Part shown: positions 11,709-62,191 of the stretch, piece after piece | Layout: the number at the start of each line of letters is the position of its first letter | How positions within the stretch are numbered: the stretch's first letter is position 1 | Source of the DNA: Candidatus Poribacteria bacterium | GTDB lineage: Bacteria > Poribacteria > WGA-4E > WGA-3G | NCBI GenBank assembly: GCA_022827625.1 | Contig: JAJEIE010000019.1 | Span: forward strand, 1 to 64,000 | Length of the DNA stretch: 64,000 bases | Reading direction: 5' to 3' | Notes under the pieces: model-generated | Database searches by the model: none | Told to the model about the DNA's origin: nothing | What the model saw: the letters and a program-made list of their open reading frames with translations, nothing else | Translations under genes and position numbers: made by a program

Positions 11709-12794
11709 ATGTTCAGAACGATTATCGCCTTATTCGGTGTCGCGTTCCTTTTTGCTTTCGCGACGGTCGCCCATGCAGAGTGGACCGTCCTCCGCGAGGA
11801 TGATATCCTTCGCGGCGATGGCATTGAAGGCATGTTACACGATGTCTATTTCATGGATAACCAGAACGGTTTGGTCGTTGGAGATAGGGGTTTAATATTG
11901 GTGACAACCGATGGTGGCACGACTTGGGGGAGAAAAGAAGTTGATATGCGGCCTCCAGGTGCTGGGCAAAGACCAGGTGGACCTCCCGGCGGTGGTGGAC
12001 CGCCAGCGGGTATGTTCGGCGGCGGTGGGGGTTCACCGCTCTATCATATCTATTTTGTAGATGAAAATCTCGGATATATAATCGGGGGGCGAGGGACTAT
12101 CTTAAAAACCGAAGACGGTGGCAAAACTTGGGCACGGAAAATGGCAAGGAGTGCTAACCCGAACCCCGGACGTGGTGGAAGAGGCGGCGGCATTCGCGCC
12201 AATTTGATGGGCATCCAGATGATTAGTGAAACGACCGGTTTCATCGCTGGGTCGGAAAATACAATTCTCAAGACCACGGATGGCGGTGAAACGTGGGTCG
12301 GCAGCTCGGAACGCGCACGCGTCGGCGAAACCCGGAACAATCTTGAAGGTCTTTGGTTCGTTTCCCCTACAACCGGATGGGTTATCGGTTCATTTGGAAC
12401 CCTCATGCATACCACGGATGGTGGTGAAACGTGGGAGAAACGCAACCCAGGCTTCGATAATAATCTCTTCGGTATTCACTTCCTTGATGAAAATACCGGT
12501 TGGATTTGTGGACAGGAGGGTTTAATCCTACATACCGCTGATGGCGGTGCGACGTGGAACCAGCAAAAAACCGAGTCCTATGACGATCTCCACGATATTA
12601 TCTTTGTCGATGCGATGGTCGGTTGGGCAGTCGGCGGTTTCAATTCCGTTCTCCACACCACCGATGGCGGCGCGACATGGACGGTATCGAATATACCCGG
12701 TGCCGCAAATCTCAAGGGCGTTCATGCAACCGATCAGAACCACTGTTGGACGATTAACGATTGGGGTGTCATCGCAGGATATAAAGGAGAGTAG
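11709..12794 (+). CDS. Secreted Ycf48-like beta-propeller protein
   Basis: A 361-residue protein with an N-terminal signal peptide (residues 1-23, cleaved after VAHA). It has about six repeats of the type ILKTTDGGETW, alternating with GWVIGSFGT-like strands, the pattern of Ycf48/BNR-type propellers. In oxygenic organisms Ycf48 helps photosystem II assembly, but in other bacteria the fold is a general secreted scaffold, and that is assumed here. A Pro/Gly-rich insert (about residues 80-108) interrupts the second blade. A strong AAGGAG precedes the ATG. It lacks the C-terminal W-G motif found on other secreted proteins here. Confidence 0.75.
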   Translation: MFRTIIALFGVAFLFAFATVAHAEWTVLREDDILRGDGIEGMLHDVYFMDNQNGLVVGDRGLILVTTDGGTTWGRKEVDMRPPGAGQRPGGPPGGGGPPAGMFGGGGGSPLYHIYFVDENLGYIIGGRGTILKTEDGGKTWARKMARSANPNPGRGGRGGGIRANLMGIQMISETTGFIAGSENTILKTTDGGETWVGSSERARVGETRNNLEGLWFVSPTTGWVIGSFGTLMHTTDGGETWEKRNPGFDNNLFGIHFLDENTGWICGQEGLILHTADGGATWNQQKTESYDDLHDIIFVDAMVGWAVGGFNSVLHTTDGGATWTVSNIPGAANLKGVHATDQNHCWTINDWGVIAGYKGE

Positions 12795-14219: not shown

Positions 14220-14981
14220 ATGACTCAAATGCTAACAATCACTGTGGTCTTACTCTGTCTTGGAATGAGCAGTTTCGCTGCGTTTGAAGAGGAAACCGTG
14301 TTATTATACCTCTTCGATGAAGAGACAGCCGATGAAGCCACAGACCTATCCGAGTTTGAGAATCATGGTGAAATCGTTGATGCTGAATGGACAGCGGACG
14401 GAAAGAATGGTGGCGGATTGGTCTTTGATGGCGCAAGTACGCTTATTGAAGTGCCGCATCACGACAGCCTCGTTCCCGGCGGCGACGAGTTGACAATCGA
14501 GGCGTGGTTCAAACCGAATTCGTTTCCCGCAGGACACCCACCTATTGCGAGAAAAGGCTCCGTTGCTGAAAGTGGATGGGGATTTGATACACCCGGTGGA
14601 CAGATTCGTGGATTCGTCTATACCGCCCCAGGTGCCGCTGCCGTTGCACAAGGGGCAACACAGATGAAATTGGACACATGGCATCACGTCGCTATGGTCT
14701 ACGACGGCTCGGAGGTTCGCATCTATCTCGATGGTGAAGAGGATGGGAAAGTTGATCGGAAAGGGGACATCAACGAGAATCAAGCCTCTGTCTGGATCGG
14801 CAAAAAAGCGAACGAGAGCGTCTGGCTCGACGGCACATTGGATGAACTCCGTATTCTCAACGTTGCTATCTCGGAAGAGCAGATTCAGGAGGATATGGAG
14901 GGGATCGCTTTTGCCGTGGAAGTCACGGACAAACTCACAACGACGTGGGGACGGATTAAAACGGAGATCCACCGCCGTTAG
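14220..14981 (+). CDS. Secreted LamG-domain protein with C-terminal W-G-R-I-K tag
   Basis: The start is set at 14220, where AAAGGAGGAAC lies just upstream and the product opens with a signal peptide (MTQMLTITVVLL...SSFA). An upstream in-frame ATG at 14133 would bury that signal. The 253-residue product is one LamG/concanavalin-A-like jelly-roll domain: VLLYLFDEETADEA at the N-side, VEVPHHDSL, EAWFKPN, WHHVAMVYDGSEVRIYLDG and WIGKKANESVWLDGTLDEL. Such domains bind glycans or mediate adhesion. The final residues, DKLTTTWGRIKTEIHRR, carry the tag shared with five other signal-peptide proteins in this window. The PhyH gene follows on the same strand. Confidence 0.75.
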   Translation: MTQMLTITVVLLCLGMSSFAAFEEETVLLYLFDEETADEATDLSEFENHGEIVDAEWTADGKNGGGLVFDGASTLIEVPHHDSLVPGGDELTIEAWFKPNSFPAGHPPIARKGSVAESGWGFDTPGGQIRGFVYTAPGAAAVAQGATQMKLDTWHHVAMVYDGSEVRIYLDGEEDGKVDRKGDINENQASVWIGKKANESVWLDGTLDELRILNVAISEEQIQEDMEGIAFAVEVTDKLTTTWGRIKTEIHRR

Positions 14982-18010: not shown

Positions 18011-18730
18011 TCACTTGGTTCGTTTGATCCGTGACCATGTTGTTGTGAGTTTTCCGATTGGTTGGACATCTGCCGGATCGTCCATTACAAACTCATCGGG
18101 TTGCTTTTGGTGATCAGAGAGTCGCAATCCATCAACGACACAATTCGTTGGGAATCTGGGGTCGGGTGGAGAGGCGTTGTTGATTTCAAAGGTTTCCGCA
18201 AACACAGTCGGTCCTTTTTTGAAATCAGCCTCCCCTTCAAGTTTGCCATCTAAATAGAGTTTCAATCCATCGGGTCCCCATGTCCCCGCCATGTGATGAT
18301 GCTCTCCCGTTTTCCAGTCGAGTGCTTCACTGTTAGCATTATGCCACGACCCTGCGCTTTTAATTCGCATCTGTGCGATCCCACCCGTGTTGAACTGCAG
18401 AAATACCGCATCAGTCCCGCGTTTGTAAGTCATGAACGTAAAGAGTTCACCGGCGATGTCGCTGGTATCCAGCCCCATCGTTACCCACAACTCAACGCTC
18501 CCTTCGTCGAGATTAACGAAACGGTCTTCCACAGGGAAGTGAATAACATCCCCAACTGCTTCGCTAACAAAACCATTACCGTATTTACCGGGCTTGAAGA
18601 CCCCACCGGGAACGGTACCACCCTCTTTTTCAACTTCCGCTTTGCTCTCTAACGCAGAAAAAAAGGTCTCCTCTGCTATAGCAACAGAGACACAAAGCAA
18701 CATAATTGTCAAAAGACATAACGTTTTCAT
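18011..18730 (-). CDS. Secreted LamG-domain protein with C-terminal W-S-R-I-K tag
   Basis: A 239-residue protein with a signal peptide (MKTLCLLTIMLLCVSVAIAEE) and one concanavalin-A-like jelly-roll domain: VELWVTM, HHMAGTWGPDGLKLYLDGKLEGEADF and a terminal NCVVDGLRLSDH. It is a distant relative of the LamG protein at 14220. A glycan-binding or adhesive role is inferred. The last residues, GKLTTTWSRIKRTK, match the shared C-terminal tag, with serine in place of glycine after the tryptophan. It is probably monocistronic, with GAGGCG upstream of the ATG. Confidence 0.75.
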   Translation of the reverse strand: MKTLCLLTIMLLCVSVAIAEETFFSALESKAEVEKEGGTVPGGVFKPGKYGNGFVSEAVGDVIHFPVEDRFVNLDEGSVELWVTMGLDTSDIAGELFTFMTYKRGTDAVFLQFNTGGIAQMRIKSAGSWHNANSEALDWKTGEHHHMAGTWGPDGLKLYLDGKLEGEADFKKGPTVFAETFEINNASPPDPRFPTNCVVDGLRLSDHQKQPDEFVMDDPADVQPIGKLTTTWSRIKRTK

Positions 18731-23440: not shown

Positions 23441-24358
23441 TTAGAACCTGGCGTGCCACAATGTGAGTTTAACATTGTCGTTTGGCGTTGATATTGCCCC
23501 GAATAATCCGGAATCCCTAATTTCCTGTTGGATTTGATTCCGAAAATATACTTCATGCTGCAGATTGAATGTTTCCGCCGCTTGAATACCCTGATAGATG
23601 TTGTTTCCATAAAGGAGCAAACCGAGGGCTGCTACCGGAATAGCAACTTCATAGCGTTCTTCTCTGGTATAATAGACGCTCGCGCTCCCTAACACCGCCA
23701 CACTCATAAAGGTGTAGAATCCATCTACACGCCTTCCACTGTAAATCTGTCCACTTCCCGGAACCAACGCTGAAAGCACACCCGCAACCGTTGGAGAACG
23801 ACGCGGCAAAATATCAACGTTTTCTACGATGCCTGCCAACCTCGCACTTACTTCACCCAACAGACTTTGTGGATCGGCTGAGGAGACATCGTTCCATATT
23901 CGACTCGCCTCTACCCATTCGTTTCTTTCTATATGGACCATACCGATCGTAAACTGCGCGAGCGGTGCTAAATCGCTGCGCTTGTGCTCGGTAAGAAAAT
24001 TTTCGAGTGCAGCAATCCCACGTTCTTTATCACCTAAGAGGATGTGACACTGAGCGATGTTGTTTGTAGAACGTTCAACAAGTGGACTGTCCGGGTAGGT
24101 ATCAATCAGAAACTGATAGGCACGCATTGCCTTCTCCAATTGTCCAGCGTTCTGATAGGATGCAGCAACACGGAAGGCTACGAAGTCGATATGTACGGTA
24201 TCGGGGTATAGAAAGAGAATCCGTTTATACTCATGAGCGGCGTTGAGGTAGTCGCCTTCTTGGAAGAGCGAATCTGCGAAGTCAGACCCCGATGCTGAGG
24301 CACGCATCGGGAGGACGCATAGGAAAATTAAAGCGGAGACGGAAAGAAAAGTCTTCAT
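23441..24358 (-). CDS. TPR protein with DUF5683-like membrane domain, paralogue B
   Basis: A 305-residue paralogue of the following gene. It has a signal peptide (MKTFLSVSALIFLCVLPMRASA), TPR-like units (DSLFQEGDYLNAAHEYKRILFLYPD; RVAASYQNAGQLEKAMRAYQFLIDTYPDSP; STNNIAQCHILLGDKERG), then VLSALVPGSGQIYSGRRVDG and two hydrophobic segments. The two paralogues are adjacent and coupled, so a recent or functional duplication is likely. An envelope complex is inferred, but no partner is proven. Its ATG overlaps the CvpA stop as ATGA. Confidence 0.65.
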   Translation of the reverse strand: MKTFLSVSALIFLCVLPMRASASGSDFADSLFQEGDYLNAAHEYKRILFLYPDTVHIDFVAFRVAASYQNAGQLEKAMRAYQFLIDTYPDSPLVERSTNNIAQCHILLGDKERGIAALENFLTEHKRSDLAPLAQFTIGMVHIERNEWVEASRIWNDVSSADPQSLLGEVSARLAGIVENVDILPRRSPTVAGVLSALVPGSGQIYSGRRVDGFYTFMSVAVLGSASVYYTREERYEVAIPVAALGLLLYGNNIYQGIQAAETFNLQHEVYFRNQIQQEIRDSGLFGAISTPNDNVKLTLWHARF

Positions 24359-31582: not shown

Positions 31583-33721
31583 TTAGAAACCGCCGCGGCG
31601 CACTGCCATGTTTTGTGCCCTGTCTGTTACCTGAATGGTGATGGTGTGTGCCCCTTCAGAGAGTTCACCGGTTTCCAGGAGAAGTTTCTCCTGCTTGGAG
31701 TCAAAGATGCCGTCCTCTGGGAAGATGGCTTTCCAGTGCTCATCGTTGTCAATCTTATAAACCGCTTTCTCAATTGGGGTGCTCATGTCTGTGACATCAC
31801 AGGCAACTTGATAAGTGCCGTTACCGTTCGCAGTGACCTGAATTTCCCCGATAGCGGGTTGGGTGTTATCTATGTCAAACGGCATGCTGACCTTCTCAAC
31901 AGATTTCGCCCAGCCAACCGGGTTGCTGAGTTTGTCAGTTGCGACAACTTTCACTGTATAGCGTCCATCTCCGACAGTGGTGATATCCCATTCGTGTTCC
32001 GCTTTTGACAGTTCTTTTTTCAGAAGTCGCCAGTTATTCTCCGTAACCGCTTTGTAGTAGACAGTATACTGCAAAGTGTCGTCATTTGCGTCTTCCACTT
32101 TCCAGTTAATTTTCCAGTTTTTAGATGGCGTGCTGTTTCCAGTGCTGGATCCACCACTACTGCCACCACGCGCGCCCGGTGGTGCTAATCCACCGGAGGG
32201 ACGCCGTCCTTGCTCTCTGTTCCCGCTGCCACTGCCGTCATCTATTTCAATGCTGGTAAACCTCGGCTCAATATTAGTCTGCACAGAGGCAAGCGTTACC
32301 TTCTTCAAGATGGGCGTTTGCGTGGTATTACTGGTCGTAATCTTGGCACGCCATTGGATGTACTGTGCATCGGCGTTCGGAATCTGAGAACCTTCTGCGG
32401 TTGTGAGTTCCTCTGACCAATCGTTCCATGTATCGTCCGGCTTTTTGGTGTTACCGGTACGGGTTGAGAAGGAGATAGCCGTTCCTTCTGCCGTTTCGGC
32501 TTCCCATGCGAGTTTACCCCAACGCGAGAGGCTTTGTGCATCGTGGACCGTTGATTCAAGCGTGCCTGATTCGACATAGGTCGTTGTGAGCGTAAAGAGT
32601 TTACCGGGATTTCCGGTTGCGAGGAGGGTTCGGGTGTTGCCGTCTATCTCTTTTTGGTGTATTGCGATGACTTGGTTCGCTGCGCATTTTCCGACTTCAA
32701 TGTGATCGCCAGTCATCGGGTTGATGCGATAGAGTTTCCCATCATCTCCGGTACCTACAAGGATTTGGGTGTCGCTTTCGAGGACAATCGCCAAGATGAG
32801 CGGTTCCGGCGAATTCCAAATGGGCGCGATAGTGCCGTCTGGACGAATCTTGTAGATGTTGGATTTGTTTTCTTGAGGGGCGCCACCGCCAGGTGGGGGT
32901 GGACCGCTCGGCGTCGGTGGTCCATTTGCGCCTCGGCGACCTCTTGAGGGTTCCGCGGGTGCCGAGGTAACAACTGCGGCGTAGAGGTTCCCTTGGCTAT
33001 CCATTTCCAAGGCGCGCACCTCTTTTTCGTCCGCTTGATAGATAACTTTCGCTGTGCCGTCGTTCATAACGTGATAGATGATCCCGTTGTCGCTACTTCC
33101 GGCATAAAATCCGTTTTCTGCTGCCAACAACGTCATGAGATTTTTCTCTTCAGCATCAAAGAGAACGCTGGATTCACCCTCTGGTGTGATTTTGTAGATT
33201 TTACCATCCGTGCCTGTCGCAGCGTAGAGATTGCCCGCATCGTCAAATTGCAACGACCATACGTATTTATCACCTTCATTGAGAATCGTCTGTGGCGGTG
33301 TTGTCGCGTCAGTGATTTTGTAAATCAATCCATCCGGTCCTGTACCAGCATAGAGAACATCGTCGGGTCCAATGGCGAGGCTGTAAATTGTAACTTCAGG
33401 TGAGTTATAGTAAAGTTCAGCGGTGTCTCCATCGGCGTTAATTTTATAGATTTTTCCTTCGTTACCAGTGCCAACGTAGAGGTTGCCTGCTGAATCCTCA
33501 ACAAGCGCCCAAACCTGAGTCTCTTTGAGTTTCGTGAAAGATTCGATTTTAGGAGACAACATAACGTCGCCGGTACTTGTAAATGAAAGATCTTTAGGTT
33601 TGCCTGCCTCAAAATCGGCGTGATTTTGCTGTTCCCACAACGAAGTCTTGACGGCGAGTGCGACATTTGTGAGCATAAAAACGGTTAAAATAAGACTCCA
33701 AAAGGAGATGACACGGCGCAT
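31583..33721 (-). CDS. Secreted NHL/beta-propeller protein with C-terminal Ig-like part
   Basis: A 712-residue protein with a signal peptide (MRRVISFWSLILTVFMLTNVALA). Residues 60-350 carry repeated blades such as ENGFYAGSSDNGIIYHV and DDVLYAGTGPDGLIYKITD (NHL/propeller type). The later part (about 530-700) has beta-sandwich strands (WKINWKVEDANDDTLQYTVYYKA, DGRYTVKVVATDKLSNPVGW). Two Gly/Pro/Ser-rich inserts interrupt it (about 265-290 and 500-535). A binding or scaffold role outside the cell is inferred. No W-G tag is present; it ends MAVRRGGF. Confidence 0.7.
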   Translation of the reverse strand: MRRVISFWSLILTVFMLTNVALAVKTSLWEQQNHADFEAGKPKDLSFTSTGDVMLSPKIESFTKLKETQVWALVEDSAGNLYVGTGNEGKIYKINADGDTAELYYNSPEVTIYSLAIGPDDVLYAGTGPDGLIYKITDATTPPQTILNEGDKYVWSLQFDDAGNLYAATGTDGKIYKITPEGESSVLFDAEEKNLMTLLAAENGFYAGSSDNGIIYHVMNDGTAKVIYQADEKEVRALEMDSQGNLYAAVVTSAPAEPSRGRRGANGPPTPSGPPPPGGGAPQENKSNIYKIRPDGTIAPIWNSPEPLILAIVLESDTQILVGTGDDGKLYRINPMTGDHIEVGKCAANQVIAIHQKEIDGNTRTLLATGNPGKLFTLTTTYVESGTLESTVHDAQSLSRWGKLAWEAETAEGTAISFSTRTGNTKKPDDTWNDWSEELTTAEGSQIPNADAQYIQWRAKITTSNTTQTPILKKVTLASVQTNIEPRFTSIEIDDGSGSGNREQGRRPSGGLAPPGARGGSSGGSSTGNSTPSKNWKINWKVEDANDDTLQYTVYYKAVTENNWRLLKKELSKAEHEWDITTVGDGRYTVKVVATDKLSNPVGWAKSVEKVSMPFDIDNTQPAIGEIQVTANGNGTYQVACDVTDMSTPIEKAVYKIDNDEHWKAIFPEDGIFDSKQEKLLLETGELSEGAHTITIQVTDRAQNMAVRRGGF

Positions 33722-46201: not shown

Positions 46202-47185
46202 CTACTCGCGCTTCATTTTTCCCCATATCGTTGTTAATGAAGACTTTGTCGGTTCAACGGGCAATGGTGAAATATCAGGCAGCCAATCTGCTTGGTAATT
46301 GCTGCCTTTACTTGTGAGTTGTTGAGGTTTACCGCCTTCCACGCTAATCTTAAAGAGTTGTCGCTCTCTTCTGGCATCGTCAAAGCGTTTTTCATAGAGA
46401 ATCTCGTTCCCGTCTGTAGACCAAGTGGGGTGGTTGACAATCGGTTCTTTAACAAGGTGCTTTACCCAGGTGCCGTCTCGGTCGGCAATGTAAAGCGAGA
46501 GTTTATCGTCTACTCTCAGGGGCCCCGCGTGATTTTCGGGCCACTTGAAGGCGGCAAAAGCGAGGCTGTCTCCGGCGGGAGACCATGCTGGATACCACAT
46601 CACAAATTTCAGGTCTGGCAGCAGCACGCTTACGGTTTTGGTGGTCACATTAATGATCCGAATGCCTCCACTCCCTTTCCAATCGTAAGCAATCTCTGAA
46701 CCGTCAGGCGACCATTCGGGGTTGACACTTCCCCAGCTTGTCAATGTCAAACGCCTCTCAGCATGTCCGGTTACCGTGGCAATTTTTATAGCATTCTCTT
46801 CAGGGGTTACATAAGCAATCCGTTTTCCATCGGGAGACCATGTGGGCTGTTCTCTGTGTTCTATTTGGCGGAAGACGCGTCGAACGTTTGTGCCGTCTGC
46901 GTCCATGAGATAAAGATCGCGCACCCTCGCAGTGCGGTCTGAGACAAACAGGATCTGTGTTCTATCGGGTGACCAAGTCGGATCAAAATCATCAGCACGA
47001 TGTCGCGTCAAATTGACCTGCTTGCTTCCATCGGCATTCATGATGTAAATTTCTTTATTTCCATCGCGGGTTGATGTGAAGACAATTTCTCTGGTCGTCG
47101 CAGCATCTACGATAGTTGGACACACGGACTGGCACAACACGACCGAGGCGATAATGAAAAAAAGTTTTGATGTAGTGTGTTTCAT
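46202..47185 (-). CDS. Secreted TolB-like propeller with C-terminal W-G-K-M-K tag
   Basis: A 327-residue protein with a signal peptide (residues 1-29, ending VDAA) and about six TolB/DPP-type blades: KEIYIMNADGSKQVNLT, DPTWSPDRTQILFVSDR, PTWSPDGKRIAYVT, PEWSPDGSEIAYDW, PAWSPAGDSLAFAA and PTWSTDGNEILYEK. Such propellers bind proteins or glycans. It ends SSLTTIWGKMKRE, the tag shared with five other secreted proteins here. It is convergent with the glycosyltransferase (9-base gap). GGAGGGT lies upstream of the ATG. Confidence 0.8.
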   Translation of the reverse strand: MKHTTSKLFFIIASVVLCQSVCPTIVDAATTREIVFTSTRDGNKEIYIMNADGSKQVNLTRHRADDFDPTWSPDRTQILFVSDRTARVRDLYLMDADGTNVRRVFRQIEHREQPTWSPDGKRIAYVTPEENAIKIATVTGHAERRLTLTSWGSVNPEWSPDGSEIAYDWKGSGGIRIINVTTKTVSVLLPDLKFVMWYPAWSPAGDSLAFAAFKWPENHAGPLRVDDKLSLYIADRDGTWVKHLVKEPIVNHPTWSTDGNEILYEKRFDDARRERQLFKISVEGGKPQQLTSKGSNYQADWLPDISPLPVEPTKSSLTTIWGKMKRE

Positions 47186-47559: not shown

Positions 47560-48432
47560 TTAGCGAGTTTGCTTGAGGGTACCCCAAGTCGTCGCCAACT
47601 TATTTTTCGCTTCAACGTTGAATTCCGCTTCGTCTGCGAGCCAGTTATTGATGAATTCAGCAACCCCAATACCGCGGATGTCGGTATTGCCTGGCCATTC
47701 TGGTTTGGCAGATTGCCACATGGCAGCAATCATACCTGTGCCGTCCGGACCGGGTTCTTTGCTGATAGCAACAGCAGGATCGGCGTTGTTTTTGTCGGCT
47801 TCTCCGAAAATAACGAGATCCCAATCTGAGCCGTCGAACTGCTCTACGTGCCATGGACGATCAGAGGTGAAATCCTCCATTGACGGGATGACCTCTGCCC
47901 CGAGTTTGGTCGGTTTCATTGCACCAACCCGGGCACCAAAACTGAGTCCGGGAATGTCAAAGACATTCGCAGCACCGTCGGGGCCGTTGTTTGGACTTCG
48001 CACACCACCTTCGTAGCTCATATAGAAGATCCAGTCTGCGACGTTAATGACGATATTGCCTGCTTCAACAAAATTCTCGACGTTAGATCCGTCTGGATCT
48101 TTATTCGGGAATTCATAAAGTGCACTCGGGCACGTTCCGCAAGCGAGGATGATAACGTCTTGTTGCCCGTTATCCGTATGCTCGATGGCCCATTTGGCAA
48201 GCGGGGAATCACCACCTTCTTCATCGCCGTCACCGAAATCTTCAATGCTGTCAAACAATGATTTGACCCCTGGATCGTCTTTAATGACTGCAACGTTCTC
48301 TCGGACAGCTTTATCGCTGATCCATCCCGGGTTCGTAGGTCCCGAGTAGAACGCCAAGTCGTTGGCTGAGACTATAGCCACGCAGCTGGTGAACGCGAAA
48401 ATGGCTATTCCCAAATAGACATAAAGTTTCAT
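47560..48432 (-). CDS. Secreted protein of unknown fold with W-G-T-L-K tag, paralogue 1
   Basis: A 290-residue protein with a signal peptide (MKLYVYLGIAIFAFTSCVAIVSA). The mature part begins NDLAFYSGPTNPGWISDKA, then GDGDEEGGDSPLAKW, DVIILACGTCPSALY, NVADWIFYMSYEGG and FDIPGLSFGARVGAM. The alternating strand pattern suggests a Rossmann or glutamine-amidotransferase/ThuA-like fold, but I do not recognise a family. It is about 55-60 percent similar by eye to the next gene. It ends NKLATTWGTLKQTR. The start at 48432 is supported by AGGAGGT 10 bases upstream. Confidence 0.75.
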   Translation of the reverse strand: MKLYVYLGIAIFAFTSCVAIVSANDLAFYSGPTNPGWISDKAVRENVAVIKDDPGVKSLFDSIEDFGDGDEEGGDSPLAKWAIEHTDNGQQDVIILACGTCPSALYEFPNKDPDGSNVENFVEAGNIVINVADWIFYMSYEGGVRSPNNGPDGAANVFDIPGLSFGARVGAMKPTKLGAEVIPSMEDFTSDRPWHVEQFDGSDWDLVIFGEADKNNADPAVAISKEPGPDGTGMIAAMWQSAKPEWPGNTDIRGIGVAEFINNWLADEAEFNVEAKNKLATTWGTLKQTR

Positions 48433-48527
48433 GATGTGCAGTACCTCCTTTTTGGTTGCCATCATTATGAGTTAATTAGGTATATGGGTAGCGCGTGCGC
48501 GCCACCCACAGTTTGAATAAAAAATAA

Positions 48528-49400
48528 CTATTGACCGGATTTAATTCTGCCCCAAGTTGTCGCTATTTTATCTTGGGCTTCTACCGGTGTTGCGATACTG
48601 CCATGTTCCATGAGCCAGTTGGCGATGAATTCGATAACGCCGCTCGCCCGCGGGTCGTCGCCTTCCCAATCGGGTTGTGCTTTCTGCCACATCGCGGCGA
48701 TGATACCGCCATAAGTCGTATTCACAGCAACGGCTGGATCGGAGGAATTGGGATCGTCATTTGAGACAGCAAAAGGGGTGACTTCCCAATCTGTGCCATC
48801 GAATTGTTCAAGATGCCAGGGACGGTCAGACTGAAATTCGACAAGTGAAGGGAGATATGTTTCTCCGGCTTCCGTTGGGACCTGCGGTCCACCTCTGGCA
48901 CCAAAACTGAGTCCCGGAATGTCAAAGACATTCGCAGCACCATCCGCAGCATTGTTTGCGCTGCGAGTTCCACCTTCGTAGCTCATATACAAGATCCAGT
49001 CAGCGACGTTAATGAAAACGTTCCCATCTTCAATGAAGTCCTCGATGTTAGAACCATCTGGGTCCGCGTTCGGGAATTGATAGATTGCGCTCGGTGCCGT
49101 CCCGGATGCAGCAATGAAAACGTCCTGTTGTCCGTTGCCAGTGTGTGCCTGCATCCATAAACCTAAGGGTGAGTCGTAACCGACTTCATCACCATCTCCA
49201 TAGTTTTCAATACTTTCAAAGATGGCTTGCATCTGAGAATCGTTCATGATGGTTTCAGCATTCGCAATTGCAGCGTCTTCTGAAATCCAACCCGGATTCG
49301 TGGGACCCGAATAGATTGCCAAGTCCGCCGCAAACCCGCTTGTCAAAGCGAGTGCTAAAAGCGATAAGCTAAGTGCTGATAATAAAAAAAGTTGTTTCAC
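48528..49400 (-). CDS. Secreted protein of unknown fold with W-G-R-I-K tag, paralogue 2
   Basis: A 290-residue paralogue of the previous gene. It has a signal peptide (KQLFLLSALSLSLLALALTSGFA), the same SGPTNPGWIS mature start, and shared DVFIAASGTAPSAIYQF, VADWILYMSYEGG, FDIPGLSFGARGG and DRPWHLEQFDGTDWE segments. It ends DKIATTWGRIKSGQ. The start is GTG with GGAGG 10 bases upstream. It is separated from paralogue 1 by 95 bases, and the tandem pair probably arose by duplication. No function is known to me; a secreted sensor, binder or hydrolase is possible. Confidence 0.75.
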   Translation of the reverse strand: MKQLFLLSALSLSLLALALTSGFAADLAIYSGPTNPGWISEDAAIANAETIMNDSQMQAIFESIENYGDGDEVGYDSPLGLWMQAHTGNGQQDVFIAASGTAPSAIYQFPNADPDGSNIEDFIEDGNVFINVADWILYMSYEGGTRSANNAADGAANVFDIPGLSFGARGGPQVPTEAGETYLPSLVEFQSDRPWHLEQFDGTDWEVTPFAVSNDDPNSSDPAVAVNTTYGGIIAAMWQKAQPDWEGDDPRASGVIEFIANWLMEHGSIATPVEAQDKIATTWGRIKSGQ

Positions 49401-49463: not shown

Positions 49464-50195
49464 CTACCGTTTGAGGCTTGCCCATGTTACAGCAAGCTTG
49501 TTTTGAGGTTCAACCGATAGACTAACCTCGTTGGGGTTATCGTAAAGATAAAGGTTATCAATATAATAGTGTTGGAGTTGATTCGTGTGGAACCCGAGTA
49601 CCCCTTTAGGGTGCAGGTTTTTGGGATCGTTCATATCAGAAACCTTTTGAAATACGAGTTCGCCCTGCCGTTTGATGTAAAGTTCAAAATTACTACCCTT
49701 GCCGAGCAAACCCAATGTATACCACTGCTTTGTTTCGATAGGAATTGGGAATTCGGCTCTAAAATCGCGATACTCGTTCCATGTACCCCGATCGTTGCCT
49801 TCACGCTTGTACCAGCGCGCCGAATTCGGGCGACCAAATCCGTTAGCAGGTGTGACAATTAATTGGTAGAAATGATAATCCTCGTTGGCACGAAATAGGA
49901 TCTCCATTTTGCTCGGAAAATCATCATCTTCAAACAGATAGAAATCAAGGCGAAGTCCAAAATCTTCAAACTCGACGACTCCGTACCCAAAATCGACCTC
50001 GCCGTTGCCGTCACCAGCGAGTCTATGGATTTCCAGATAACCGCGGTTCACATCCCAAGACTCATCCTGCCCCTTCCAGTACTTATCTTTAAGTTTGCCT
50101 TCAAAGTCGTCTGCCACTAAGAGTTTCGCATTACCTATCTGAGAAACAAGCAGAAAACATAAGGCAAGGTAAAAGAGAATAGTAGCTTTTAGCAT
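49464..50195 (-). CDS. Secreted DUF1080-like jelly-roll protein with W-A-S-L-K tag
   Basis: A 243-residue protein with a signal peptide (MLKATILFYLALCFLLVSQIGNA). The body (VADDFEGKLKDKYWKG, DESWDVNRGYLEIHR, KMEILFRANEDYHFYQLIV, TKQWYTLGLLGKGSNFELYIKRQGE, KGVLGFHTNQLQHYYIDNLYLY) fits the LamG/DUF1080 jelly roll that binds or cleaves glycans. It ends NKLAVTWASLKR, the tag with alanine after tryptophan. The upstream ATG at 50216 is rejected because GAGGTGCC precedes the chosen start. Confidence 0.75.
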   Translation of the reverse strand: MLKATILFYLALCFLLVSQIGNAKLLVADDFEGKLKDKYWKGQDESWDVNRGYLEIHRLAGDGNGEVDFGYGVVEFEDFGLRLDFYLFEDDDFPSKMEILFRANEDYHFYQLIVTPANGFGRPNSARWYKREGNDRGTWNEYRDFRAEFPIPIETKQWYTLGLLGKGSNFELYIKRQGELVFQKVSDMNDPKNLHPKGVLGFHTNQLQHYYIDNLYLYDNPNEVSLSVEPQNKLAVTWASLKR

Positions 50196-50301
50196 AATAG
50201 GCACCTCCATAAGCATAAAATGCTACTTTAATTATAATCTATCTTACCGATATTTGTCAAATCTTCTTTATTCTTCTTCCGTTTCACTTTCGCCAATCCC
50301 G

Positions 50302-51192
50302 TTATTCTGCCAATCCGTGTTCGCTGAGAGCCACATCGGAGAATTGGCTCTGTTCTTGAAACTTTCCACTTCCGTCGTTGTTATAGAGAAAGTTCACGTC
50401 TGCGTCGTTTGCGACATAGAGATCGGCGTCCCCGTCAGCGTCGTAGTCAGCGAAGGTAGCACCTAACCCACGCGCCGCAACATTATCGAAACCTGCTGCT
50501 GCTGTATTCTCTGTGAAAGTGCCGTCGCCATTATTGCGAAAAAAGGTGTCTTTTACGCCGTCGTAGACGCGTGGACTGCAGTAAACCAAAATACCATTGA
50601 CCCGGCATGGCGTGTGCGTTTCCACAGAGAAATTCACGTAATTGGCGACGTAGAGATCCAAATCACCATCTGCATCTACATCTGCGAATGCACACCCTGC
50701 GCTCCACTCAGGGACTTGGACGCCGGCTTCCGTTGTGCGGTTTGTGAAAGTTCCATCACCATTGTTTTGGTAAAGGACGTTGGCACCGAAATTGGTTACG
50801 TACAGATCAAGCCAACCGTCATTGTCGTAATCACCAACACAAACACCGGCACCGTAGCCTCGATCGCCAACGCCGCTTGCTTCGGTTACATCGACGAAGT
50901 GCCCGGTGCCATCATTACGATAGAGACGATTCATTGCGTCTGGAACGGTGTGTGATGCGTCCAAATCAGCGCCGTTGACGAGGTAAATATCTACATCGTT
51001 GTCGTTGTCGTAATCAAATAGGGCAACACCGGAACCGAGCGTTTCGACAAAATACTTCTTGTAACTACGTCCGTCCTCGTGATGGAATGTAACGCCGCTT
51101 TCGTTTGTGACATCTGTGAACGTGACATTCGGTTGTCCGATGGAATTGGAGATAATAAGAAGGCTGAATAATAATGGGAATGCAATCTTCAT
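50302..51192 (-). pseudogene. Truncated FG-GAP/VCBS-repeat secreted protein
   Basis: A 296-residue product with a signal peptide and at least four FG-GAP-type calcium-binding units, each with DYDNDG or DADGD: ALFDYDNDNDVDIYLVNGAD, CVGDYDNDGWLDLYVTNFGAN, AFADVDADGDLDLYVANYVNF and TFADYDADGDADLYVAND. In full-length relatives (ASPIC/UnbV proteins, about 500-600 residues) the GLAE position is followed by further repeats and an UnbV domain. Here a stop follows GLAE directly, and no continuation is found downstream. It is therefore probably broken, or a short paralogue. It has no W-G tag. Confidence 0.6.
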
Positions 51193-60316: not shown

Positions 60317-62191
60317 ATGTCTTGTCGTCAATCTGTCATTTGGATGTGTGTTCTTCTCATCGCTATTGGGAGTTCGACGCTCGCAAACGAAGCGGCGATG
60401 TCCCTATTTGCACAAGGGGTCAAAGAATTAAACGCCGAAAAGTTTGACACTGCGCTTGAGACATTCGAGCGGGTTACGACACTCGCGCCTGATTTTGCCG
60501 ATGCACACTATCACCTCGGATTGGTTTACTACCAGAGAGCGGAATTCCCAAAAGCGATTGAAGCGTTCACCCGAACTTTAGAACTGCTGCCGCGGGACAT
60601 AGATGCTCTCATCAAATTAGGATTGGCTTCCCATAAAGCGGGCGATATAGATGCCGCCGATACCCGAACGAAACGTGCCTTCTATGAACAAGCAGTCGCA
60701 GCATATCAAACCGCCCTTGACATTCGACCGCATAACGTAGAGGCACTCAACAATTTAGGGCTTGCGTATCAAGAATTGGATCGGTTTGACGAGGCAATTT
60801 CAGTATATGAGGAAGGGTTGGCACTCAGTCCAGACCAACCGCAACTGCATGCCAATCTCGCAACGGCTCGTGACCTACGAGCTGGCATTTATTCGCTCGC
60901 TGCGCATCGACATTATCAGGTAGGTGTGCGTGCCGAGCAAGCCGGACGAACAGAAGTGGCAATAGCGGCTTGGAAACAAGCCGTTGCTGAAAGCCCAAGA
61001 TATTTGAAACTGTATCTGCAGTTGGCTGACCTCTACTTTGAAAAGGGCGAATACGATCAGGCAATTCAGACGTATCTTTCGGCAATTGCGTTGGTATCCG
61101 AAAATCAGATTTCTCAGCCGACAGGCACAGCGAACATTTTCTATAATCTCGGTAACAGTTATTTACGCGCACAACAATTGGAAGCGGCGGTCTCCGCCTA
61201 CCGACAAGCAGTGGATATAAATCCTGAGATGGTAAGTGCTTGGGCAAACATGGGTACTGCTTTACTTGAAATGGAGCGGTTTGATGCTGCTATTATGGCG
61301 TGTCAGTCGGCACTCAAGGTGCATACCACTACGCTTTCCTTGGGCAAAGTTTCGGGTGTGTCTCCGTCTGAATTAAGCAATATTGAATTCACCCTCAAGA
61401 CGGCTCAAAATATAAAAGCAGGCGAATACACAATGCAGGCGTATCGCTTATGGAGACAGGGATTTTCTGCGGGAAACCGTGGCGATATACGGGCTGCTCT
61501 TAAGTTATGGAAGCAGGCGGTCGCGCTGAGTCCTCACTACGCAACGGCATATGAAAATTTAGCGTGGGGGTATTTCAACCTCAAACAGTTTGACAATGCG
61601 ATCCAAGCAGCGAAAACTGTTCAAACGGTTCATCCGCATCCACAGGTCGCACAATTGATTGAATTCGCGAGTGAACTTAAGACGGGAAAATACCCTTTTG
61701 AGGCGTATCAGCTCTGGGAACAGGGACGGCGTGCCGGTGCAGCGGGGAATCTGGAGGCGGCGGTTGCGCTGCTCTCGCAAGCAATCGCAGCAGGACCCGA
61801 ATTTGCGGCGGCATACAATACGTTGGCATGGCTCTACGCCGATAAATTGGGAACGAACTTAGCAGAAGCGGAGAAGTTGGCAAAACGTGCCCTCGAACTC
61901 GACCCGGATGCAACGCATATTAATGATACCCTTGGATGGATACTGTATAAGCAAGGACGGTACGCTGAAGCCCTTACCGTGTTTGAACAGGCACTCGCGC
62001 ACGCGCCGGACAACGCTGAATACCTATATCACGGCAGTTTGGCTGCAATGAAAAATGGTCAGACCTCCCAAGCACTGGAATATCTAAACCGAGCCGTCGC
62101 CCTGGATGCGCGCATCAGACAGAGAGTCGAAACCCAGAGCGAATTCGATGCCATCCGTTTTACACCAGCATTCCGTTCTCTCATCCGATGA
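60317..62191 (+). CDS. Secreted tetratricopeptide-repeat protein
   Basis: A 624-residue protein with a signal peptide (MSCRQSVIWMCVLLIAIGSSTLA) and about a dozen TPRs grouped in three blocks, each starting with a similar AxxxWxxGxxAGxxGxxxxA line (HRHYQVGVRAEQAGRTEVAI, YRLWRQGFSAGNRGDIRAAL, YQLWEQGRRAGAAGNLEAAV). It is a periplasmic or outer-membrane scaffold by inference; such proteins often accompany type II secretion or pilus systems. It is convergent with the GspD-like gene (14-base gap). It lacks the W-G tag. Confidence 0.75.
   Translation: MSCRQSVIWMCVLLIAIGSSTLANEAAMSLFAQGVKELNAEKFDTALETFERVTTLAPDFADAHYHLGLVYYQRAEFPKAIEAFTRTLELLPRDIDALIKLGLASHKAGDIDAADTRTKRAFYEQAVAAYQTALDIRPHNVEALNNLGLAYQELDRFDEAISVYEEGLALSPDQPQLHANLATARDLRAGIYSLAAHRHYQVGVRAEQAGRTEVAIAAWKQAVAESPRYLKLYLQLADLYFEKGEYDQAIQTYLSAIALVSENQISQPTGTANIFYNLGNSYLRAQQLEAAVSAYRQAVDINPEMVSAWANMGTALLEMERFDAAIMACQSALKVHTTTLSLGKVSGVSPSELSNIEFTLKTAQNIKAGEYTMQAYRLWRQGFSAGNRGDIRAALKLWKQAVALSPHYATAYENLAWGYFNLKQFDNAIQAAKTVQTVHPHPQVAQLIEFASELKTGKYPFEAYQLWEQGRRAGAAGNLEAAVALLSQAIAAGPEFAAAYNTLAWLYADKLGTNLAEAEKLAKRALELDPDATHINDTLGWILYKQGRYAEALTVFEQALAHAPDNAEYLYHGSLAAMKNGQTSQALEYLNRAVALDARIRQRVETQSEFDAIRFTPAFRSLIR

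Follow-up and report, generated by a model that had tools for sequence, protein, structure and literature searches.

The stretch of DNA analysed here (the window, positions 1 to 64,000 of contig C26 from a poribacterial genome of 5.02 Mb in 41 contigs, 95% complete) encodes six proteins that end in a common C-terminal tag. The tag is a conserved motif that stands at the C-terminus of proteins with signal-peptide-like N-termini whatever domain precedes it, has been selected at the protein level, is present throughout the phylum Poribacteria and recurs in a second lineage. Our preferred explanation, which we consider probable but not secured, is that an unidentified partner in the envelope recognizes this tag, which has no transmembrane (TM) helix, once Sec has exported the proteins, and brings them to the cell surface or outer envelope or docks them there. 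The tag meets the criteria of a sorting signal in being close to the C-terminus, on exported proteins and independent of the domain. Its C-terminal confinement, its signal-peptide carriers and the lack of a single ancestral domain support the original prediction of an export, anchoring or modification signal.

A six-frame regular-expression search recovered all six predicted motifs at the expected genes and found no seventh copy in the 64-kb window (Table 1). The six proteins had been described as differing in their domains, which holds for the LamG and TolB/PD40 propeller proteins, but only four families are represented, as the 14220 and 18011 proteins are both LamG proteins and the 47560 and 48528 proteins are paralogues with 56-58% identity and a ThuA-like fold. 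A DUF1080-like domain, also predicted, could not be confirmed for the 49464 protein. Other signal-peptide-like proteins of the window lack the tail (for example 11709-12794, 23441-24358, 31583-33721 and 60317-62191), and it is therefore no general feature of exported proteins. Adjoining the tagged cluster, an ORF at 50302-51192 encodes a signal-peptide FG-GAP/UnbV-like protein that stops mid-repeat and looks truncated.

Table 1. Tags and tagged proteins of the window (window positions), and type IX secretion loci elsewhere in the same genome
Feature	Position	Strand	Basis
Tag VEVTDKLTTTWGRIKTEIHRR + stop, of LamG protein 14220-14981	14916..14981	+	Six-frame regex, profile
LamG (Laminin_G_3) protein, signal peptide, tagged	14220..14981	+	Pfam, AlphaFold2 model
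Tag VQPIGKLTTTWSRIKRTK + stop, of LamG protein 18011-18730	18011..18067	-	Six-frame regex, profile
LamG protein, signal peptide, tagged	18011..18730	-	Pfam
Tag VEPTKSSLTTIWGKMKRE + stop; 1 additional residue ahead of core	46202..46258	-	Six-frame regex, profile
TolB/PD40 beta-propeller, signal peptide, tagged	46202..47185	-	Pfam
Tag VEAKNKLATTWGTLKQTR + stop	47560..47616	-	Six-frame regex, profile
Paralogue of 48528 protein, signal peptide, tagged	47560..48465	-	
Tag VEAQDKIATTWGRIKSGQ + stop; in the model detached from domain, pLDDT about 41	48528..48584	-	
ThuA-like fold protein, signal peptide, tagged	48528..49400	-	
Tag VEPQNKLAVTWASLKR + stop	49464..49514	-	Six-frame regex, profile
Protein without Pfam match, signal peptide, tagged	49464..50216	-	
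Type IX secretion loci, window's genome	L315:7973-14743 (C31); L304, L305, L306, others		

A profile built from the six window tails was used for a six-frame search of the genome, and the best 150 of 208 candidates were examined; all tag counts are lower bounds. When the ORFs were read, 147 of these 150 matches proved to be true tails near a stop codon, giving at least 147 in the 5.0 Mb genome and bearing out the restriction to C-termini that had been proposed as a check. In all but one of the 147, the conserved Lys lies 1-9 residues ahead of the stop. The three remaining matches comprised one fragment and two motifs located ~90 residues before the protein end (C14:50179 and C7:60456). Anchored on the Trp, the consensus reads L-[AP]-V(131/147)-[ED]-[PA](135/147)-x-[GD]-K(131)-L(125)-[AT]-T(110)-T(105)-W-[GA](141)-x-[LI](131)-K, with a few variable residues after it; the counts for W and K are inflated because both served as anchors. 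The tag is ~18 residues long, with about 14 constrained positions in the logo and little information before position -13, and the logo also confirmed that the tail contains neither a hydrophobic helix nor an LPXTG motif. Scores above 15 bits were reached by 143/147 real tails and by 0/2,940 shuffled tails, and 17 further stretches of this genome, with 324 ORFs, gave no profile match above 10 bits. Proteome-wide statistics refer to the search matches and these 17 sampled 20-kb stretches. Five tags were seen on ORFs of 32-42 residues without a signal peptide (C29:106476, C25:90229, C24:12681, C33:42412 and C32:35831), which are probably frameshifted genes or assembly errors.

Signal-peptide carriers, another proposed check, were the rule genome-wide: 137 of 139 full-length tagged ORFs had a signal-peptide-like N-terminus by a home-made heuristic, which is permissive and approximate (84/223 background ORFs also pass). 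Only one of these 137 proteins has a lipobox and only one an internal TM segment. Pfam searches of 142 tagged proteins matched 47 families in total, led by Laminin_G_3 (75 proteins), PD40 propellers (10) and 3-keto-disaccharide hydrolase (7), with Lamin tail (4), CBM9 (4), F5/8 (3) and Kelch (3) among the others. A single ancestral domain, named beforehand as a possible refutation, does not explain the tag, given the many Pfam families among its carriers.

The original prediction had also stated that the codons of the tag differ between genes, and the core DNA indeed differed in all 147 copies. Third-base identity at fourfold-degenerate positions was mostly 0.26-0.35, compared to 0.25-0.29 expected from codon usage, with Ala at +1 (0.56) as the exception. 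Codon variation together with near-expected third bases points to selection on the peptide rather than to a translated DNA repeat. That the tag itself lacks a function, being merely a translated mobile repeat or a stretch inherited along with a single ancestral domain, is hardly credible in view of the 147 differing cores, their mostly near-random third bases and the many unrelated folds involved, although the share of LamG proteins (75/142) means that descent accounts for part of the copies.

AlphaFold2 models of the unrelated 14220 and 48528 (48531) proteins both displayed a confident domain and a detached, partly helical tail with a pLDDT of about 40-60. The core has a helical moment of 0.45, compared to 0.30 for shuffled sequences, and a mean net charge of +2.7; this charge, with the amphipathic pattern L-4/W0/L+3, suggests a short helix bound via its Trp face. 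In addition, several specific residues are conserved although the folds that carry them are unrelated, which favours recognition by one protein over generic membrane binding, and sporadic occurrence on unrelated exported proteins is how a signal with a partner behaves. For PEP-CTERM, the same argument for a partner was made from its sporadic distribution (PMC1569441). In the mechanism that we propose, Sec would export the protein, whose N-terminal signal peptide would be cleaved off (both inferred from sequence), and the folded domain would then display a basic segment, V-[ED]-P-x-x-K-L-[AT]-T-T-W-G-x-[LI]-K, that is exposed and mobile. The dedicated partner, whose existence and action after export are inferred, would reside in the periplasm or outer membrane and bind the tag, probably in the form of a short amphipathic helix whose L(-4), W(0) and L(+3) share one face, and would bring the protein to the cell surface or outer envelope or dock it there. 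This destination is deduced from the types of protein and by analogy, without localization data.

We found the tag in all 85 of the Poribacteria genomes surveyed (22 genera and 10 families, single-contig genomes included), with between 27 and more than 105 matches each at E up to 0.01. When 84,980 species were scanned with an exact degenerate pattern, 78 of the 80 loci among the matches listed were named Poribacteria, and other lineages may exist beyond these. All 128 profile matches at the 80 loci lie within 12 residues of the ORF end, again in keeping with confinement to C-termini. Outside the phylum, the order of Pseudomonadota that includes the MAG G086 has the tag in two of 43 genomes (G086 and G111) and in none of the other 41. 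Contamination was rejected as the source of these tags, which are taken to be native: the G111 matches are scattered across a 2.84 Mb contig and one tag locus in both genomes shares its lon/aminotransferase synteny. The carriers in G111 and G086, which have export signals and terminate in the tag, are a family without a Pfam match (trypsin-like by eye) and metalloprotease-like ankyrin lipoproteins. One gene for the latter in G111 (L342:6722-9715) begins 22 bp after a weak match to the type IV minor pilin ComP.

The lon neighbour shared by both Pseudomonadota genomes, together with the short, exposed position of the tag near the C-terminus, would also fit a mark for processing or turnover, recognized by an envelope protease as a degron or C-terminal processing site. 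We nevertheless judge this very improbable: the residues that follow the conserved Lys vary in number (1-12) and kind, unlike the final residues of known C-terminal degrons, Lon is cytosolic whereas the tagged proteins are exported, and the adjacency concerns one locus only.

The Planctomycetota MAG G085 has three tag matches, one of them on a protein 72% identical to a poribacterial one. These may reflect contamination, which is not excluded, or transfer. Two viral contigs from IMG/VR encode a LamG protein ending in GLKVEPKLKLTTTWGEVK[KR] (L361:12770-13693 and L362:6403-6558), and T4-like replication genes are present on at least one of them; the phages may use the host sorting route.

This distribution bears on a further reading, in which the tag is a dockerin- or cargo-peptide-like docking peptide that assembles exported proteins on a periplasmic or surface scaffold and has no role in transport. 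Many modular binding proteins end in this short, amphipathic, basic and detached peptide, which would suit such a function, as would the clustering of tagged genes, 59 of 150 of which have another within 2.5 kb (21.9 expected). However, different types of carrier in two phyla and on phage contigs mean that the scaffold would have to be common, and none has been identified, so that we regard docking without transport as unlikely.

The tag can be compared with several known systems. Like PEP-CTERM, which is read by exosortase, the tag is a short C-terminal region found on many unrelated signal-peptide proteins, in many copies per genome and sporadically over lineages. It differs in lacking a TM helix and the PEP-helix-basic architecture, and the criteria for PEP-CTERM (PEP motif, TM helix and basic cluster) are not met, as the logo contains no hydrophobic segment and an internal TM segment occurs in 1/137 proteins. 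Exosortase was rejected as the partner: even at E up to 1, PF09721 matched nothing in the genome of the window, which is 95% complete. LPXTG motifs, read by sortase, are likewise C-terminal and act after export, but the tag has neither LPXTG nor a hydrophobic helix, as judged from the logo and the TM check. The peptides that load cargo into encapsulins and microcompartments are also short, amphipathic and C-terminal, following a flexible linker; their cargoes, however, are cytosolic, whereas tagged proteins carry signal-peptide-like N-termini (137/139).

The type IX secretion system (T9SS) requires closer attention. Its C-terminal domain (TIGR04183) is likewise a signal without a TM helix at the end of proteins that Sec exports in diderm bacteria and, like the tag, is found in Poribacteria. 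The genome of the window encodes a divergent SprA-like protein of 2,257 residues, to which TIGR04189 aligns in several collinear segments; all 20 relatives tested have a counterpart (21/21 Poribacteria genomes). It also encodes three PorU-like C25 peptidases, one of them beside a PorV-family gene, 17 PorV-family matches and TIGR04183 sorting domains on about 50 proteins. Judged by these matches, Poribacteria encode a predicted divergent T9SS, contrary to a 2014 study that found sorting domains in the phylum but no Por structural genes (PMC3909097). The presence of such a system makes it the obvious candidate partner, and the tag could be a minimal T9SS signal, defining a second, short class of substrates, for which a PorV-like shuttle or a PorU-like sortase would provide recognition and an SprA-like channel the way out. 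Besides these components, the two internal tags at C14:50179 (L307) and C7:60456 (L308) are in line with this possibility, since both stand immediately ahead of a TIGR04183-type domain; they imply that processing may not require a free C-terminus beforehand, a point against the reading that we favour, and one may speculate that both proteins would end in the tag once the sorting domain was removed.

Other observations speak against a T9SS signal. Apart from these two exceptional proteins, the criterion for a type A T9SS substrate is not met, as TIGR04183 was not among the families matched by the 142 tagged proteins. The domain spans ~72 positions compared to ~18 residues for the tag, and their sequences are unrelated. 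T9SS is found in phyla besides Poribacteria, whereas 78/80 loci among the matches listed in the pattern scan are poribacterial. Moreover, SprA was matched in none of the 43 genomes made up of G086, G111 and their 41 relatives, which excludes T9SS as a necessary partner: if the mechanism is the same in both lineages, the tag does not need SprA. We therefore doubt that the tag is a T9SS signal.

A single export or sorting gene that accompanies the tag had been proposed as a further check, and neither of the two candidates examined fills this role, with exosortase absent from the genome and SprA missing from the second tagged lineage. Around the tagged genes, G111 and G086 have no transporter in common, and the families that these regions share with the examined poribacterial DNA are mostly common housekeeping ones. 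PorV-family genes are no nearer to tag genes than their density predicts, by inspection and without formal statistics.

Searches of NCBIfam, Pfam and the PDB revealed no entry matching the tag (the best solved structure, at E 0.13, was unconvincing), and literature searches returned no paper with any of six literal motif strings and nothing relevant on a poribacterial sorting signal. C-terminal sorting signals are already known as a kind; the novelty of the tag lies in its sequence, in the absence of both a TM helix and a folded domain, and in the lack of a known partner. It is conceivable, and we put this forward tentatively, that a protein sorting or outer-membrane export pathway not yet described, and separate from T9SS, exosortase and sortase, uses the tag as its substrate signal. 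Such a pathway would serve more than 100 proteins in each Poribacteria genome and would have spread to phages and to at least one lineage of Pseudomonadota.

Taken together, the common ~18-residue tag on hundreds of exported poribacterial proteins with unrelated domains resembles an unrecognized address label for a protein-sorting route with machinery yet to be identified, and exosortases were likewise predicted from a class of C-terminal signals that was found first. The small second lineage, with tagged genomes and untagged sisters, makes the partner gene findable by comparative genomics. In the uncultured, sponge-associated Poribacteria, which are prominent in marine sponge microbiomes, this unnamed signal marks one of the largest sets of exported proteins, and it would permit a sequence-based listing of these proteins and of their possible contacts with the sponge.
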